A program made the position numbers and the translations under genes. Source: Gemmatimonadota bacterium (lineage in GTDB: Bacteria; Latescibacterota; UBA2968; UBA8231). Taken from it: a stretch of DNA of 33,464 bases. The notes below the pieces were generated by a model that saw nothing but the letters and a program-made list of their open reading frames with translations, ran no database searches and was not told where the DNA came from. This document shows positions 1,614-8,910 of this stretch, one piece after another; position 1 is the first letter of the stretch, and each line of letters opens with the position of its first letter. The stretch is from NCBI GenBank assembly GCA_002724215.1, contig PBOD01000021.1:53354-86817 (forward strand), written 5' to 3'.

Positions 1614-2306
1614 ATGCAAAAGACGCTAAGCGCTCTACTGACGGTTGCACTGATTGTTGGTCTGGCGGGCAATTCGGAGGGTGAGACTTACACGGAGGAA
1701 GCGGTGGATCAGGCGCCGAATCCACACTATTCTCGGTATTTTTTCGCGCCGACGGCTTTTCCGCTGCAAAAGGGGAATGGCTATATACAAACGACCTGGC
1801 TGGTGGCCTGGTCGGCACATTACGGTATCGCGGATTATGGCTCGATCGGTTTTGTGACCACCCCTGTGGGCAGGCCGTTTTTCCTCACGCCCAAGATCGG
1901 TATGCGGGTTGCGGACAAGTGGTACACGGGTGGTGGAGTGATGCTGGGCTATGTCGACGGAGATCCATTGGGCATCGGCTACGGACTGAGTACCTGGGGC
2001 GATATCGAGCAAAATCTGACATTCGGCTTGGGTTGGGCCTTCGGTGCGGGCGACGTCGAGCAGTCGCCGCTACTGAGCATCAATGCGATGAAGCGATTTG
2101 CCGATTCGTGGATGATGATGTTTGAGTCCTGGATCTTTACCGAGGACGTGTCGGATTTACACCTGCTGCTCTACGGAGTGAGGTGGCATCGCGGCGGCCA
2201 GAACAGTCTGGATCTCGGATTCATCATTCACCGCGAATTCGTGGAAGAGTGGAACAATACCTTTTTTCTGGGCATTCCCTATTTCGGCTGGACCTTCGGT
2301 TTCTAA
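1614..2306 (+). CDS. Putative outer-membrane beta-barrel protein
   Basis: The 230-aa product starts with a Sec-type signal peptide (about residues 1-23: basic Gln-Lys start, hydrophobic LLTVALIVGLAG core). The rest is rich in alternating aromatic and glycine residues. The segment SRYFFAPTAFPLQKGNGYIQ opens a series of predicted beta strands such as IGYGLSTWGDIEQNLTFGLG, and the chain ends in GWTFGF. A terminal Phe after an aromatic-alternating strand is the usual recognition signal for the outer-membrane BAM machinery. It resembles uncharacterised small barrels of other Gram-negative phyla; ligand and role are unknown. The ATG at 1614 is preceded by a weak purine run (AAAAAAAGGGA) and places the signal peptide at the very N-terminus. 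No same-strand partner adjoins it. Confidence 0.75.
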   Translation: MQKTLSALLTVALIVGLAGNSEGETYTEEAVDQAPNPHYSRYFFAPTAFPLQKGNGYIQTTWLVAWSAHYGIADYGSIGFVTTPVGRPFFLTPKIGMRVADKWYTGGGVMLGYVDGDPLGIGYGLSTWGDIEQNLTFGLGWAFGAGDVEQSPLLSINAMKRFADSWMMMFESWIFTEDVSDLHLLLYGVRWHRGGQNSLDLGFIIHREFVEEWNNTFFLGIPYFGWTFGF

Positions 2307-2452
2307 ACTCTGTTCTCGCTGGTGCTGTCTGGCTGGATGGCACCAGTGTCCGGCAAGGGCATCAATCGCTCGGCAGTGCGCTCAATGTACGCCATCGCCG
2401 CCAGGTCGTACCCGCCCGAGGTGTCGCCCCGGTCTACGGTGGTGTATACTCT
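2303..2452 (-). pseudogene. Start-less protein-like frame downstream of the DMT exporter
   Basis: After an in-frame TGA (2453-2455) the minus strand stays open for 49 codons and reads very like protein: VYTTVDRGDTSGGYDLAAM, then AYIERTAERLMPLPDTG. Its TAG stop overlaps the stop of the convergent barrel gene. The only ATG is at 2395, which would give 30 residues, yet the sequence before it is equally protein-like. A 3' remnant of a lost gene or a frameshifted reading frame fits best. No family is recognised. Confidence 0.3.
2319..2346. repeat. Inverted repeat between convergent genes
   Basis: CTGGTGC (2319-2325) and GCACCAG (2340-2346) form a perfect 7-bp stem with a 14-nt loop, between the convergent barrel gene and DMT exporter. 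The position suits a bidirectional terminator, but no T tract follows on either strand, so termination is only a guess. Confidence 0.3.
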
Positions 2453-2489
2453 TCAGCTCAAGGCTGCGGTCTTCAAGTAAAAACGCCCC

Positions 2490-3380
2490 TCATATCACCA
2501 CCCACACCCCCACCAGACACAACCCCATCCCCGCCACTACCTGCCAGGTCACCTGCTCCTTGAGAAAGACCATTGCCATCGCCATGCCGAATACCGGCGA
2601 GATCGACGTCAGTACCGCGACCTTGCCGACTGTAGACTGGGTAATGGCGTAGAGGAAGAGATTGGCGCCCAGCCCCATCCCCAGACCCCCGGTGAGTCCG
2701 ACGATCACAAAGCTGCGCCAACTGATGCCCCGCAGCGATTCGTTGCCGCTGGGCAGGATGCGGAAGAAGTAGACCAGCAGCGCGATAAGCGGCATGCGCA
2801 CCGCGTTGGCATGGGTGGTGTCGAGATGGGATGTCGCGGGTTTGAGCAGCGTGGAGGACAGGCCCCAGAGGACGGAGGCAGCCAGCGCGAGGAAGACGCC
2901 ATAGCGCAGGCGCATGTCCTGCGCGTCCTCCTCTTTCTCGCCGAGGCCCGAAAGCAGCGCGACCCCGGCGACCACCAGCACTGAGCCCAATACCAGCGCC
3001 AGGGTCATTGGCTCGCCCAATAGCGCGCTTTCCCACAACAGGGTCGTCAGTGGAAAAGTACCGGTCAGCGCCATGGTGCGCGAAACGCCGATCTCCTTGA
3101 TGCCGCCCAGGTAGAGGGTGTCGCCCAGGGCGATGCCGAGGGCGCAGCCGATAAATAGCAGCGCCCAATCTTGCCACGGCACGAGGGCCAGATCGGCGAT
3201 GGGCGGCGCAACGAAGGGTACGGCCACCCACAGCATGAGACCAGCGACTCCGCAGCGGATGCAGTTCATGGCCGCAGGGGAGACCAGGTGCGATTGGGTG
3301 CGGAGGATCAGCCCGTTGAGCGCCCAGACGAAGGCACACCCCAGCGCGGCCAGCTCGGCCGCGGAGACGAAGCCGGGCAA
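2490..3380 (-). CDS. DMT-superfamily transporter (EamA family), copy 1
   Basis: The 296-aa protein is almost entirely hydrophobic, with about ten membrane segments in two EamA repeats. The first repeat begins AELAALGCAFVWALNGLILR and the second begins around VFLALAASVLWGLSSTLLKP. EamA proteins of this length are inner-membrane exporters or importers of small metabolites such as amino acids, sugars or nucleosides; substrate cannot be read from sequence. The start is a TTG only 6 nt after the TAA of the upstream gene, and no ATG occurs until well inside the first repeat, so TTG is the most reasonable choice. It is the last gene of a three-gene operon after two tandem proteins of unknown function, which suggests it moves something they make or use. 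Confidence 0.85.
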   Translation of the reverse strand: MPGFVSAAELAALGCAFVWALNGLILRTQSHLVSPAAMNCIRCGVAGLMLWVAVPFVAPPIADLALVPWQDWALLFIGCALGIALGDTLYLGGIKEIGVSRTMALTGTFPLTTLLWESALLGEPMTLALVLGSVLVVAGVALLSGLGEKEEDAQDMRLRYGVFLALAASVLWGLSSTLLKPATSHLDTTHANAVRMPLIALLVYFFRILPSGNESLRGISWRSFVIVGLTGGLGMGLGANLFLYAITQSTVGKVAVLTSISPVFGMAMAMVFLKEQVTWQVVAGMGLCLVGVWVVI

Positions 3381-3386
3381 GAAGTG

Positions 3387-4568
3387 TTAAAAGCGGCCGT
3401 GGTGCGACTCGGCTGGGGCCTGGTATGCGACGTTGAGGTGCGGCGTCGCAAGCAGTTGGTGGCCCTCGACCCTGGAGGTCAGGCAGCTTTCTAACGCACC
3501 GCTGACGATGAGGGTGCGCTCGGCGGGATAGGGGGCCACTCCCGTTTCGATCATCTCCCATATTTTGGCCACGAAACAGGCCGAATAGGTGACATTGGGC
3601 GTCGGCGTGAGGAAGAATTGCGTCGAGACGGGATTTTCTTCGCCCTTGAGCTTGCAGGCGAAGGTATAGTCGCGGATCGCGCCGTTGAGCATCAGCAGCG
3701 TGGTCTTGAGGCCGTCGTTGTGCTCGATAAAATAGGCGGCCGGCTCTTTAACCAGCCCGGGCAGCTCGCCATTGCCGAGCAGATCCTGGGTGCGGCCGTC
3801 CTCGTCGGTCTTGCCGCACGGGGTGTCGCTGCGCGAGAGCGCAGATTCTAAGAGCTCCAGCGAATAGCGGCCGTCCTCGCCGGCTTTCCACACCTCGTCG
3901 CCTTCGATCAACTGCACCGATTTGACCCCGGTCTCGCCGCCCGCGCGTCGCTCGATCATGCACTGCATGGCCTCAAGCGCGTGGTAGTCCATCGGGTCGG
4001 AGCCGCCGCAGCCGACCATCAGCGCTTCTTCGATCTCGCAGCCCAGCGGCAGCTCGACGTCGGGCAGGCGGTAGGTGACCGGCAGCGAGGAGCCGGCCAG
4101 GATCGGGAAGCCGAGCCGATGGCCGTCGTCGACCATCTCCCTGGCCTTGTCGAAGCTGTAGGAGAGGTGCTTGTCGTTGTAGACGGGCACGACGCGGCCG
4201 TCCTCTTCGAAGACTTTGACGCACTCCTTGAAGAATTCGTAGCGTGGGTAGAGCACCTGGCCCTTGTCGTTTTTGGGATAGTCGCCGTGCTCGCCGATGA
4301 TCAGCACCGCGTCACAGGCCAGCTCGTCGCCGCCGCAGCGCAGGGCCTCGGCGATGGTCGGATAGACCGCGCCCCCGAACTCCCGCGCGCGGTCTTCGCT
4401 CTGGTCGCCCTCGGGTTTCTGATCGACGTAGATCGAAACCAGTTTGCAATCGGGGCGGTGCCACTGGCCGCCGTAGGGATAGCCGACGAAAAAGCGGTCG
4501 GCGAAGTGCTGGGCGTGCGAAAGATAGCGGTAGATGGTGGCGATGACGGCGATGCGCTTGGTGGCCAT
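3387..4568 (-). CDS. Conserved protein of unknown function, tandem paralog B
   Basis: This 393-aa soluble protein has no signal peptide or membrane segment. It opens with a Rossmann-like strand (KRIAVIATIYRYLSHAQH). Motifs shared with its neighbour follow: IGEHGDYP near residue 110, LYPRYE, YNDKHLSY near 150, GSSLPVTYR near 180, ALEAMQCMIERR near 215, then PAERTLI and TPHLNVAYQ near the C-terminus. Similar unannotated proteins occur in Planctomycetota-type genomes. I cannot assign a reaction; a distant Gfo/Idh-like fold is possible for the N-terminus but not shown. The ATG lies 3 nt after the stop of paralog A, with GGAG inside the end of that gene as its ribosome site. The EamA exporter follows 6 nt downstream, so all three are probably co-transcribed. 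Confidence 0.8.
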   Translation of the reverse strand: MATKRIAVIATIYRYLSHAQHFADRFFVGYPYGGQWHRPDCKLVSIYVDQKPEGDQSEDRAREFGGAVYPTIAEALRCGGDELACDAVLIIGEHGDYPKNDKGQVLYPRYEFFKECVKVFEEDGRVVPVYNDKHLSYSFDKAREMVDDGHRLGFPILAGSSLPVTYRLPDVELPLGCEIEEALMVGCGGSDPMDYHALEAMQCMIERRAGGETGVKSVQLIEGDEVWKAGEDGRYSLELLESALSRSDTPCGKTDEDGRTQDLLGNGELPGLVKEPAAYFIEHNDGLKTTLLMLNGAIRDYTFACKLKGEENPVSTQFFLTPTPNVTYSACFVAKIWEMIETGVAPYPAERTLIVSGALESCLTSRVEGHQLLATPHLNVAYQAPAESHHGRF

Positions 4569-4571
4569 GGA

Positions 4572-5780
4572 TTACGTTCTCCAGAAAGTCGATTCGGCGG
4601 TCGGCTGGTAGGCAATATTGAGATGCGGGGTGTCGATTTTGGCCTGGTCCTGGTCGAGGCTATCGACCCCGGCGATGACCAGGCCGGAGGTCAGCAGCGT
4701 GCGCTCGACCGGGTAGGTGGCCTTACCGGTCAGGAACATCTGCTCGATGTTGTTGACCAGCGGGCTGAAGAAATTGGCCAGCGTGGTGCGGGCCGGGGGC
4801 ATCGGCAGGTACATCTGAGTTGAGAAGATATCCCCCCCTTTGAGTCGTGCGGCGAAGTTGAAATCCTGAACCAGGCCGTTCATCAGGATCATCGTCGAGA
4901 GCAGACCGTCTTGGTGCTCGTACTGATAAGCGACGGGGCTTTCGACGATCTGCTTCATCTCGTCGATGGTGGGAAAGGGATTGTTGAAGCCGGGTCGGCC
5001 GGGCGTGAGCGTGTGGCTGCGGCAGAGGTTGGCCTCAAAGAGCTCGCGCGACCACACCCCGTCGGCATGGGCCTGCCAGAAGTTGTCGTCGCGGTAGGCC
5101 TGGAGCCATTTGACGCCCGACTCGCCGCCCTGGCGGCGCTCGACCATGCACTGCAGCGTCTCCAGCCCGTGGAAGTCGTAGCTGTCGACGCCGCCGTAGC
5201 AGACGGTGACGGCCTCTTCGGCCTCGGCGCTGGTCGGGAACTCCAAAGAGGGCGTGCGCCAGGTGACCGGTAGCGAAGAGCCGGACATAAAGGCGAAGCC
5301 CATCTCCTGCGAGATATCGTACATTTCCTGGCACCAATCCCAGTTCCACGACAGATGCTTGTCGTTGAAAATGGGTGCGGTTTTGCCGGTGGTGCGGTAG
5401 ACCGAGACGATTTGCTTGAAGAGTTCGTAGCGCGGATAGAGGTGCTGGCCTTTGGGGTTGTGGGCGTAGGACCCGTGCTCGGCGACCAGCAGCACGCCAT
5501 CGACGGCGAGGTCGTCGCCACCCAGGGTTAGCGCGTCGGCGACGGTGGGATAGATCTGCATCTGCGGGAAGCGCTCGGCGCGGTCGCGGCTGAGGTCGGG
5601 CCGGTCTGCCTCGGGGTCGGGATCGACCTGGTCGACGTAGAGAGAGACCAGATCCATCGGTGGGCGGTGGTGGCGTCCGTTCCAGCCATAGCCTTCGAGG
5701 AAGCGATCGACGATGTGCTGGGTGTGGGAGTACTTGTGGTAGATGGTGGTGATGGCGGCGATTTTGGGGCGGTCGGCCAT
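4572..5780 (-). CDS. Conserved protein of unknown function, tandem paralog A
   Basis: The 402-aa product is clearly homologous along its whole length to the next gene. Shared blocks include the TTIYHKYSHTQH start, VAEHGSYA, LYPRYELF, FNDKHLSW, GSSLPVTWR, LETLQCMVERRQGGESGVK, EHQDGLLSTM, YPVERTLL and TPHLNIAYQ. Invariant His, Asp, Lys and Arg residues inside these blocks suggest an active site, but no known catalytic signature is recognised. It is cytosolic by appearance. It is the first gene of the operon, with a promoter-like TTGCCC-17-TATCTT 48 nt upstream and an AGGA about 10 nt before the ATG. The divergence between the copies looks too large for a recent duplication, so both have probably been kept for different substrates or as a heteromer. 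Confidence 0.8.
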   Translation of the reverse strand: MADRPKIAAITTIYHKYSHTQHIVDRFLEGYGWNGRHHRPPMDLVSLYVDQVDPDPEADRPDLSRDRAERFPQMQIYPTVADALTLGGDDLAVDGVLLVAEHGSYAHNPKGQHLYPRYELFKQIVSVYRTTGKTAPIFNDKHLSWNWDWCQEMYDISQEMGFAFMSGSSLPVTWRTPSLEFPTSAEAEEAVTVCYGGVDSYDFHGLETLQCMVERRQGGESGVKWLQAYRDDNFWQAHADGVWSRELFEANLCRSHTLTPGRPGFNNPFPTIDEMKQIVESPVAYQYEHQDGLLSTMILMNGLVQDFNFAARLKGGDIFSTQMYLPMPPARTTLANFFSPLVNNIEQMFLTGKATYPVERTLLTSGLVIAGVDSLDQDQAKIDTPHLNIAYQPTAESTFWRT

Positions 5781-5827
5781 GAGTCTCGGTCCTGAGGGTG
5801 AGCGGGTACAGGGCTAGATGCGCGGCT

Positions 5828-5856
5828 AAGATAGGAGACAGAGGGTTTGGGGGCAA
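5828..5856 (-). promoter_or_regulatory. Sigma-70-type promoter of the tandem-paralog operon
   Basis: On the minus strand TTGCCC (5856-5851) is followed after exactly 17 nt by TATCTT (5833-5828). Each hexamer matches consensus at four of six positions. Transcription would begin near 5820, giving a 5' leader of about 40 nt before the ATG at 5780. Confidence 0.5.
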
Positions 5857-5950
5857 ATAATGGTCCAGGGCCTTGCAGTTCTACAGAACAGAGCGTGCGG
5901 GAACGGTACTGCAGACCCGTTGCGGGCAGATCACCAAAGTGGCAGACGGC

Positions 5951-7447
5951 TCAGTCCGCGTCGATCCAGCCGAGACTGCGCGCGACGGCCTTTTGCCAGC
6001 GGGCGTAGCCCTCGGTCCGGGCGCGGTCGTCGCGACCGGGCATCCAGCGCCGGTCCTCGCTCCAGTTGGCGCACATCTCCTCGCTACTGTCCCAGAAGCC
6101 GACCGCCAGCCCGGCGGCATAGGCCGCGCCCAGCGCGGTGGTTTCGGCGACGGCAGGGCGGATTACCGGTACGCTGAGGGCGTCGGCCTGGAATTGCATC
6201 AGCAGCTCGTTCTGCACCATGCCGCCGTCGACTTTCAATGCTCGCAAGTCTACCCCGGAATCGGCGCGCATTGCATCGAGCACGTCGCGGGTCTGGTAGG
6301 CGGTGGCTTCCAGGGCTGCGCGGGCGATATGGCCCTTGTTGGCATAGCTGGTCAAGCCGGCGATGACCCCGCGCGCGTCGTCGCGCCAGTGGGGTGCGTA
6401 GAGTCCGGAGAAGGCCGGGACGAAATAGACGCCGCCATTGTTGTCGACGCTGCGCGCCAACTCTTCGACCTCGGGCGCACTGGCGATCAGACCGAGGTTG
6501 TCGCGCAGCCACTGCACCAGTGCGCCGGCGATGGCGATGGATCCCTCCAGCGCGTATGCTGCCGGCTCCGTCGCGAACTGATAACACACCGTCGTCAGCA
6601 GCCCGTGCGCGGAAGGTACGATCTGCTCCCCGGTGTTGAGCAGCATAAAGCAGCCGGTGCCGTAAGTGTTCTTGGCCTCGCCCGCGTCGAAGCAGGCCTG
6701 GCCGACTGTGGCCGCCTGCTGGTCGCCGAGGATGCCGCAAACGGGTAAAGTGGTGCCAAAGGGTCCGTCGGCATCGGTGTGGCCGTAGGGTGTGGCAGCA
6801 CTGCTGGGTTGGATGGCGGGAAGCATGGCGCGGGGAATGTCCATGGCCTGGAGCAAGTCGTCGCTCCAGTCGAGTGTTTCCAGATCCATCAGCAGGGTGC
6901 GCGAGGCGTTGGTCGGGTCGGTGATGTGGGTGCCGGTCAGTTGCCACGCCAGCCAGCTATCGATGGTGCCGAAGAGCGCATCGCCGCGCTCGGCATCCGG
7001 GCGCAGCCCATCGACATGGTCGAGCAACCACTTGATTTTGGGACCCGAGAAATAGGTGGCCAGCGGCAGGCCGGTGCGGGCGCGGAAGCGGTCCTGGCCG
7101 GCGTTTCCGGCGAGCGCGCGGCAGATTGCGTCGGTGCGGGTATCCTGCCAGACGATGGCGTTGTAATAGGGCTGTCCGGTGTGGCGGTTCCAGACAACGG
7201 TGGTCTCGCGCTGGTTGGCAATGCCGACGGCGGCGATTTTGGCGCGGGGGGCTTTGGCGAGCGCGGTGCGTACGGCTTCCTGGGTGCACTGCCAGATTTC
7301 GAGCGGATCGTGCTCGACCCAGCCGGGTTGCGGGTAGAGCTGGCGGTGTTCGAGCTGGTGGGCGGCGACGGCGCGACCCGTGTGGTTGAAGAGCATGCAG
7401 CGGGTGCTGGTGGTGCCTTGGTCGATGGCGGCGATGAGTTGGGTCAT
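5951..7447 (-). CDS. glpK: Glycerol kinase
   Basis: The 498-aa enzyme phosphorylates glycerol with ATP to sn-glycerol 3-phosphate in the cytosol. It has the FGGY-kinase N-terminal phosphate loop ([11 protein letters not shown] at residues 6-16), the RQTT-type region [18 protein letters not shown], the family signature [14 protein letters not shown], and the second ATP-site block [13 protein letters not shown] with [14 protein letters not shown]. Length matches the family norm (about 500). The ATG overlaps the TGA of a short upstream open frame by 4 nt (ATGA), and only a weak purine stretch precedes it. No glycerol facilitator or glycerol-3-phosphate dehydrogenase lies beside it. The product could feed phospholipid synthesis or glycolysis. 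Confidence 0.96.
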
Positions 7448-7620
7448 GGAGCGTCTTCCGCTGCAAATAGCCGGGCCATCTGTAGCAGCGCTTCACCCGC
7501 ACCTGCGACTTCGATCATAGCCCGTTGAATTGCCTCCTTGAAACGTGCGTTATCCGCCGTAAGCGCATTTTGTCCATGGACCCCTGTCCAATTTCCACTG
7601 CGCCGAGCGTTGTCGTGCCA
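7444..7620 (-). pseudogene. Start-less open frame coupled to the glpK start
   Basis: After an in-frame TAA (7621-7623) the minus strand is open for 58 codons and reads like the tail of a protein: TGVHGQNALTADNARFKEAI followed by a helix-forming [18 protein letters not shown]. Its TGA overlaps the glpK ATG. The only plausible start is ATG 7518 (24 aa), with AAGGAGG about 14 nt upstream, which is rather far. It is either a remnant of a gene once coupled to glpK or a short leader peptide. Confidence 0.3.
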
Positions 7621-7857: not shown

Positions 7858-7868
7858 TTAGCCGACAT
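7659..7868 (-). pseudogene. Truncated frame coupled to the end of the DUF4932 gene
   Basis: ATG 7868 lies 11 nt inside the end of the DUF4932 gene, in another frame, a typical coupled start. The first 28 residues (MSANDLLGGAVRYLQTLDAR, then AVQPSRKW) look like a genuine protein N-terminus. After that the composition turns unprotein-like and the frame stops after 69 codons. A gene whose 5' end survived a deletion would look like this. The N-terminal segment loosely recalls PLP-dependent decarboxylases, but it is too short for a call. Confidence 0.3.
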
Positions 7869-8910
7869 GGTGCCGCAGGGCGATATCGTCGAAACACCGC
7901 ATCAGGTCGGGCATAAAGGCGGTCAGCGAGGGGTAGCGGTCGCGGTTTTGCTCGTAGTCATCCATGGCGTCGACTATCTCGGGCAGGTGGCGGCAACCGT
8001 ACTGGTCGATATGGTGCTGCAACAGGCGCGCCGCGTCCTGGGGTTGGTTCGCCACCAGCGCGATGCGGACCTCGCAGGCGCGGATGATGTGCTCGGCGAC
8101 ATTGACCCGGGGCGACCAGCCCATCTGCCCGCTTTCGCGCTCGGCTGCGTAGAGCGCGACGAAACGCTCGATGACATCGGCGTAGTGCGGCGGCTCGAGC
8201 AGGTGGTTGACGAAGGAATGCCCGAATTCGTGGACCGATAGCTCGGCCAGGCTCTGCGGCGAGTCGAAGCCGTGACCGTCTGCGTCGGGCTCGACTGAGC
8301 AGAATGGCGCGAAGGTGTGGTAGATTTCGATCTCGTCGTCGCGGTGCACACTATTGCCGAAGCCGTGGCCAGCGATGCTCAGCGGTGAAGGGACCAGGTA
8401 AAAACCACGCGCATCGTCGCCGGCGCCGGCGCCGTAGTAGTTGCCGACCAAGTCGAGCCAGGAGGCGTCGGGCAAGCAGGCGCTGACCTCGGCCATAATG
8501 CCCTCGTAGCGCGGTTGTTGCTCGCGGTAAAAATTGTCGAAGCGGGCTCGCTCGTAAAAGTCGTCGACCAGCGGCAGGAAGTCGGCGATGGCCCTTTTGC
8601 CGGCCTCGGCGTCTCCGTCTCCGGCCTCGGCGTATCGGGAGTTGGGCAGGGGTGTCGTGAGTATGGCCACGGGGAAGGCGGTGCAGGTCAGCGCTAGTTG
8701 GATCATCGCGTCCCACCAGAAACCCTGTGCGTGCAACTGGTTGGCCTTTTGCACGGCGGGGTGCTCGCGCAGGTGGGCGAAGCGCTGCATGACTGCGCGG
8801 CGGTAGGGCTGGGACGGCATACCGGCGTTCCACTCTCCGGCGCCGTTTGCCGTGAGGTTGAGCAGAGTGGTAATGACCTCGACGTTGGGATCGATGCGGG
8901 CCTGGAGCAT
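7858..8910 (-). CDS. DUF4932-type putative zinc metallopeptidase
   Basis: The 350-aa protein has the DUF4932 layout: an N-terminal VDP-like segment (RIDPNVEVITTLLNL), a helical middle part, and SVHEFGHSFVNH at residues 225-236. HEFGH (His227, Glu228, His231) is the zinc-binding HExxH of gluzincin-type metallopeptidases; a third ligand may be Glu in the downstream NVAEHIIRACE segment. No signal peptide is evident, although many relatives are exported. Substrate and proteolytic activity are inferred from the motif only. ATG 8910 has TGGAG about 12 nt upstream. It follows the PHP gene after a 178-nt spacer holding a long inverted repeat. Confidence 0.75.
   Translation of the reverse strand: MLQARIDPNVEVITTLLNLTANGAGEWNAGMPSQPYRRAVMQRFAHLREHPAVQKANQLHAQGFWWDAMIQLALTCTAFPVAILTTPLPNSRYAEAGDGDAEAGKRAIADFLPLVDDFYERARFDNFYREQQPRYEGIMAEVSACLPDASWLDLVGNYYGAGAGDDARGFYLVPSPLSIAGHGFGNSVHRDDEIEIYHTFAPFCSVEPDADGHGFDSPQSLAELSVHEFGHSFVNHLLEPPHYADVIERFVALYAAERESGQMGWSPRVNVAEHIIRACEVRIALVANQPQDAARLLQHHIDQYGCRHLPEIVDAMDDYEQNRDRYPSLTAFMPDLMRCFDDIALRHHVG

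Follow-up and report, generated by a model that had tools for sequence, protein, structure and literature searches.

A conserved pair of paralogues with an altered Gfo/Idh/MocA-type fold, probably forming a heteromeric enzyme in diverse bacteria

The window (the whole stretch of DNA that was analysed, 33,464 nt) holds three consecutive minus-strand open reading frames, P1, P2 and an EamA/DMT transporter gene, separated by gaps of 3 and 6 nt (Table 1). We found that P1 and P2 are 46% identical from end to end and that the third gene product belongs to the EamA/DMT family (PF00892; E = 8.4e-42 and 143 bits, compared to a curated cut-off of 28.2), which confirms a preliminary description of the locus as tandem full-length homologues followed by an EamA gene. 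The same description placed the genes behind one recognizable promoter, a claim that did not hold up: a consensus scan of positions 2200–7600 found no sigma-70-like site on the minus strand. Upstream of P1, at a distance of 170 nt, lies the end of a glycerol kinase gene (FGGY family; 5951–7447, likewise minus strand), from which read-through into P1 is possible; this gene is not conserved beside the pair at other loci. A DUF4932 protein (PF16286) is encoded at 7858–8910.

Table 1. Genes and P1 motifs at the locus, with positions in the window
Feature	Position	Strand	Description
P1	4572..5780	-	402-aa ORF; Gfo/Idh/MocA fold predicted, GxGxxG missing; putative catalytic subunit
P2	3387..4568	-	393-aa ORF; paralogue of P1, proposed obligate partner subunit
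EamA/DMT transporter	2490..3380	-	296-aa ORF with TTG start; lineage-restricted third gene
P1 residues 10–19, TTIYHKYSHT	5724..5753	-	beta1-alpha1 loop at the GxGxxG position; strand 6–11 and helix 19–28 in the model
P1 residues 139–144, NDKHLS	5349..5366	-	EKP equivalent, with K141 at the catalytic Lys position in hmmsearch and hhalign alignments
P1 residues 199–207, DSYDFHGLE	5160..5186	-	strand 187–194, then helix 201–213; H204 and D199 are the candidate catalytic His and Asp

Neither P1 nor P2 matched Pfam or NCBIfam at E-values up to 1, or a defence family in PADLOC at E-values up to 0.1, and eight paralogues had no match to a Gfo/Idh/MocA family in Pfam at E-values up to 10. PHROGs returned a single chance-level match to P1 (E = 0.05) and no phage family. 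The Pfam, NCBIfam and PADLOC searches therefore placed the two proteins in no curated family and gave no profile match to a characterized one, and we found no description of the family in the literature searched. The earlier statement that the shared motifs match no known signature is borne out by the curated libraries, but the fold is a known one from which the cofactor motif is missing.

Relatives are numerous. A scan of ~85,000 species, each represented by one genome, detected at least 534 of them, and the best 80 come mostly from metagenome-assembled genomes labelled Latescibacterota, Poribacteria, Acidobacteriota, Planctomycetota, Chloroflexota, Gemmatimonadota and Verrucomicrobiota (labels as deposited, single cases of which may be wrong). 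The P1-P2 pair is common to at least seven bacterial phyla, and this conservation rules out a chance origin of the observation. In the tree, P1 and P2 form two ancient clades, each with 100/99 support and each spanning the same phyla. The window genome has nine members of the family. Four of them make up two pairs, the one in the window and L003/L005; L002 is a P1-type gene on its own, and the other four belong to a distinct clade of solitary genes.

We examined 80 P1-type loci, of which 78 were informative and two were cut by a contig end. In 68 of the 78, across phyla, P2 lies immediately after P1 (65 scored pairs and three overlapping pairs, L048, L054 and L065), which matches the earlier expectation of a conserved pair in distant genomes; the remaining loci comprise three fusions, three with an insert between the genes and four without P2. 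The intergenic gap has a median of 33 nt in the 65 scored pairs, and many genes overlap by a few bases. In the window's phylum, P1-type and P2-type genes occur in the same 33 of 64 genomes. The three fusions, all in the order P1-P2, are from Chloroflexota (L040, L041 and L044), and a further P1-P2 fusion was found in the window's own family (G011; L121, 874 aa). Because the Chloroflexota and G011 fusions have unrelated linkers and separate positions in the tree, at least two independent fusion events have occurred.

The inserts separating P1 and P2 lie in three Poribacteria (L030:9216-11315, L032:6882-7508 and L087:1373-2056). The one in L030 is a 699-aa ORF whose family also flanks other Poribacteria pairs and is possibly a mobile element. 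In a planctomycete (L086:9162-11826), two tandem P2 copies follow P1.

The paralogues could simply share an operon and be kept for dosage, without a physical or mechanistic link, and recent P2 duplicates such as those of the planctomycete are indeed also in tandem. However, the deep separation of the two clades, the fixed P1-then-P2 order, the two separate fusion events and the defined interface in the predicted structure (see below) all argue against dosage, which we find hardly credible.

The locus had initially been read as a module for producing a metabolite with P1 and P2 and exporting it through a dedicated EamA protein. The order P1-P2-EamA was found in four species only, namely three congeners (the window species G000, G005 and G006) and one further relative (L018). 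A distant homologue on the Arthrobacter plasmid pHiyo8-1 (30% identical) likewise adjoins transport genes, following a MarR gene and a split MFS transporter gene. However, EamA is absent from the pair at nearly all other loci, including those of most congeners, and it is conserved at 62–63% where P1 and P2 are conserved at 86–92%. Other genes lie downstream instead; for example, G004 and other congeners have an aldo/keto reductase and then a sigma-54 regulator, and several acidobacteria have a creatininase. Thus, distant genomes keep the pair but not the pair-plus-EamA arrangement, a dedicated exporter within a conserved unit was rejected, and a transported metabolite has little basis; we consider the export module very improbable.

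In the plasmid homologue's neighbourhood (L146:10704-13272), a frameshift seems to have broken the MFS transporter gene in two, and the annotation merges the latter half with the family homologue into one ORF. At three other loci (L017:10202-14383, L019:10547-14796 and L130:7985-12154), the pair is followed by an aldo/keto reductase and a protein of 1040–1063 aa in which two-component propeller repeats are combined with a sigma-54 activator domain. We also looked for a conserved third gene that would name the substrate, and rejected the candidates (creatininase, PhyH, M19 peptidase, aldo/keto reductase and outer-membrane barrels) as recurring within lineages only; no substrate clue was found among the genes neighbouring the pair.

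Structure prediction, which the preliminary description had suggested as a check, gave a confident AlphaFold2 model of P1 alone (pLDDT 94 and pTM 0.93, from a 106-sequence alignment). All 50 PDB matches listed by Foldseek are members of the Gfo/Idh/MocA superfamily or close fold relatives such as biliverdin reductase and Gal80p, with a best E-value of 2.7e-11, identities of 8–14% and TM-scores of up to 0.66 by target length. The model and its matches show the two-domain architecture of that superfamily, an N-terminal Rossmann domain and a C-terminal alpha/beta domain. Profile comparisons agree with this fold but are weak in both cases (E = 0.01–0.03 for PDB profile hits to Gfo/Idh/MocA; E = 6e-5 and a probability of 65% for profile-profile alignment to the window genome's canonical members), and both set NDKHLS opposite the EKP motif. 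The Pfam profile PF01408 found 143 proteins over its cut-off in the window genome, and neither P1 nor P2 is among them. By the predicted structure, it is near certain that P1 has the Gfo/Idh/MocA dehydrogenase fold, and the pair is taken to work in the manner of this fold family and probably descends from it. For a 5.85-Mb genome, 143 PF01408 matches are an unusually large expansion.

Canonical enzymes hold the cofactor's diphosphate with a GxGxxG motif in the beta1-alpha1 loop (PMC11489326). In the P1/P2 family this loop, which hhalign sets opposite the GLG of canonical members, has the pattern [TS]x[YW]xxxSH, and glycine is absent from its common variants among 106 sequences; nine of ten sampled canonical members from the same genome keep GxGxxG. 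A regular-expression search for GxGxxG matched 38 sequences, and the P1 sequence and model locate the match to a hairpin after helix 1, where some P1 proteins read GYGWNG (residues 30–35) and where G32 is proline in every P2. The cofactor motif that defines standard Gfo/Idh/MocA members was looked for and not found, so P1 and P2 should not be filed with them.

Canonical catalysis employs the EKP lysine together with an aspartate and a histidine of the C-terminal domain (PMC5969746). EKP reads DKH in the family, with the lysine position (K141) unchanged in 105 of 106 sequences; H204 and D199 show the same count, at a mutual spacing of 5 compared to the canonical 4. Compared with xDxGVHxLD in A7, DSYDFHGLE places FHxLE at the position of the catalytic histidine helix. 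In the P1 model, H19, E101–H102, N139–H142 and D199–H204 lie after or at the C-terminal ends of predicted strands (6–11, 95–99, 137–140 and 187–194, respectively). The C-terminal strand edge is the ligand-binding side in this fold. The shared motifs, previously noted as resembling an active site, are thus predicted to line the ligand-binding edge of an enzyme fold, and we infer from the model that the conserved residues form a single pocket. The quoted motifs are all present and most of their residues hold over 106 homologues, but the asparagine of TPHLN is not conserved; PAERTL is the P2 version of a motif that reads PVERTL in P1. Across 53 sequences, P1 keeps its site with essentially no exceptions. 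The full residue set is usually present in P2 as well as in P1, and a simple division into a catalytic protein and a helper would not predict this.

The pair could also carry out two related oxidations without needing to form one complex. The retained fold, lysine and histidine positions are consistent with this, as is the usual presence of a full site in both proteins. NAD-specific enzymes usually have an acidic residue at the end of strand 2, and P1 has D50 there. However, the common forms of the family's loop lack the glycines that canonical members of the same genome mostly keep, PF01408 passes over both proteins, and P2 is retained even where its site has decayed (see below). On balance, two separate oxidations are unlikely.

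We modelled a fused pair (L041, 810 aa) from an alignment that combined fusions with adjacent in-frame genes translated across the stop codon(s) between them. The model forms one compact body with a disordered linker (pLDDT 89, pTM 0.88). Because pTM is 0.88 despite the disordered linker, the domain arrangement is defined, and a much lower score would be expected for two 400-aa domains without a fixed mutual orientation, with the proviso that AlphaFold2 may impose on the fused model a homodimer packing learned from relatives. Together with the fusions, this score favours the earlier suggestion that the pair is heteromeric rather than merely duplicated, and a P1-P2 heteromer is likely.

In one acidobacterial species, P2 (L091) has lost H19, E101, H102, Y105, R117, N139, K141, H142, D199, D202 and H204, and still has S168, S169, R175, E207, Q210, E214–R216, D291, R360 and Y391. 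A second acidobacterial species (G065) has the same decayed P2, 88% identical to the first, and the two share the substitutions E101G, H102Q, R117G, K141E, H142P, D199R and H204R. The reading frame of this P2 remains open, with a dN/dS of 0.25 that indicates purifying selection; the neighbouring P1 is intact and has a dN/dS of 0.13. Consequently, a P2 without its site is still selected for, as is expected of a subunit.

Gal80p has the Gfo/Idh/MocA fold and acts in regulation, and the pair could likewise be a ligand-sensing, non-catalytic module. Gal80p is among the best fold matches, and the decayed P2 shows that catalytic residues can go while the protein stays. Both the near-invariance of the P1 site and the lack of a regulator or DNA-binding partner conserved beside the pair speak against a sensing role, which we regard as improbable.

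The data supports, with a probability of roughly 0.6, a reading of P1-P2 as an obligate heteromeric cytoplasmic enzyme of the Gfo/Idh/MocA fold whose dinucleotide site is either non-canonical or missing. Counted in its favour are the fold, the missing GxGxxG, the near-strict lysine and histidine positions, the deep co-conservation and the two independent fusions. In such an enzyme, P1 and P2 would pack together, probably in the manner of Gfo/Idh/MocA dimers; P1 would bear the essential active site (K141, D199 and H204), and its E101 and H102 may take over the place where NAD would lie. P2 would be a second, specialized active subunit in most lineages, and may be purely structural or regulatory where its site has decayed. 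Against an obligate pair, P1 occurs without P2 at four loci and as the lone copy L002 in the window genome, which indicates that it can act without P2.

Small polar sugars, cyclitols and their acids are typical substrates of this fold. The substrate of P1-P2 may be a similarly small polar ring or chain (a sugar, a cyclitol or their acid; polyol- or sugar-like), with hydride or proton chemistry at a carbinol carbon, and the enzyme may use a non-canonically bound nucleotide or none, as a lyase or epimerase would. A bolder proposal is that the family gave up its dinucleotide site for a polar one (EHG, YPR, SH and DKH), becoming cofactor-independent or dependent on a different cofactor, with P2 as a pseudoenzyme partner in some lineages; we hold this to be possible, though somewhat doubtful.

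Widespread uncharacterized proteins, nine of them in the window genome alone, are thereby placed in a structural superfamily, and each motif is given a predicted role. The fused pairs, the lone P1 genes and the pairs with a decayed P2 constitute a natural experiment on the transition of a dehydrogenase fold from homomer to obligate heteromer and on the possible loss of its cofactor motif.

Compared to known systems, P1-P2 is a known fold in altered form and no categorically new system. EamA/DMT transporters (PF00892) include the window's third gene as an ordinary member whose link to the pair is sporadic. Gal80p, which ranks high in the Foldseek matches, shows the same fold in a non-standard role; unlike it, P1 keeps the catalytic positions, and no regulatory partner is conserved at the pair. 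With the Gfo/Idh/MocA enzymes (PF01408; 3nt2 myo-inositol dehydrogenase, GFOR 1ofg, GenD2 6nor and scyllo-inositol dehydrogenase), P1 shares the two-domain fold, and it has candidate counterparts of the catalytic residues: a lysine at the EKP position and a histidine, and probably an aspartate, after the first strand of the C-terminal domain (PMC5969746). In contrast to these enzymes, P1 and P2 have no GxGxxG loop and no Pfam match and carry DKH in place of EKP, and where a Gfo/Idh/MocA enzyme is the homo-oligomeric product of one gene, here there are two dedicated paralogues.
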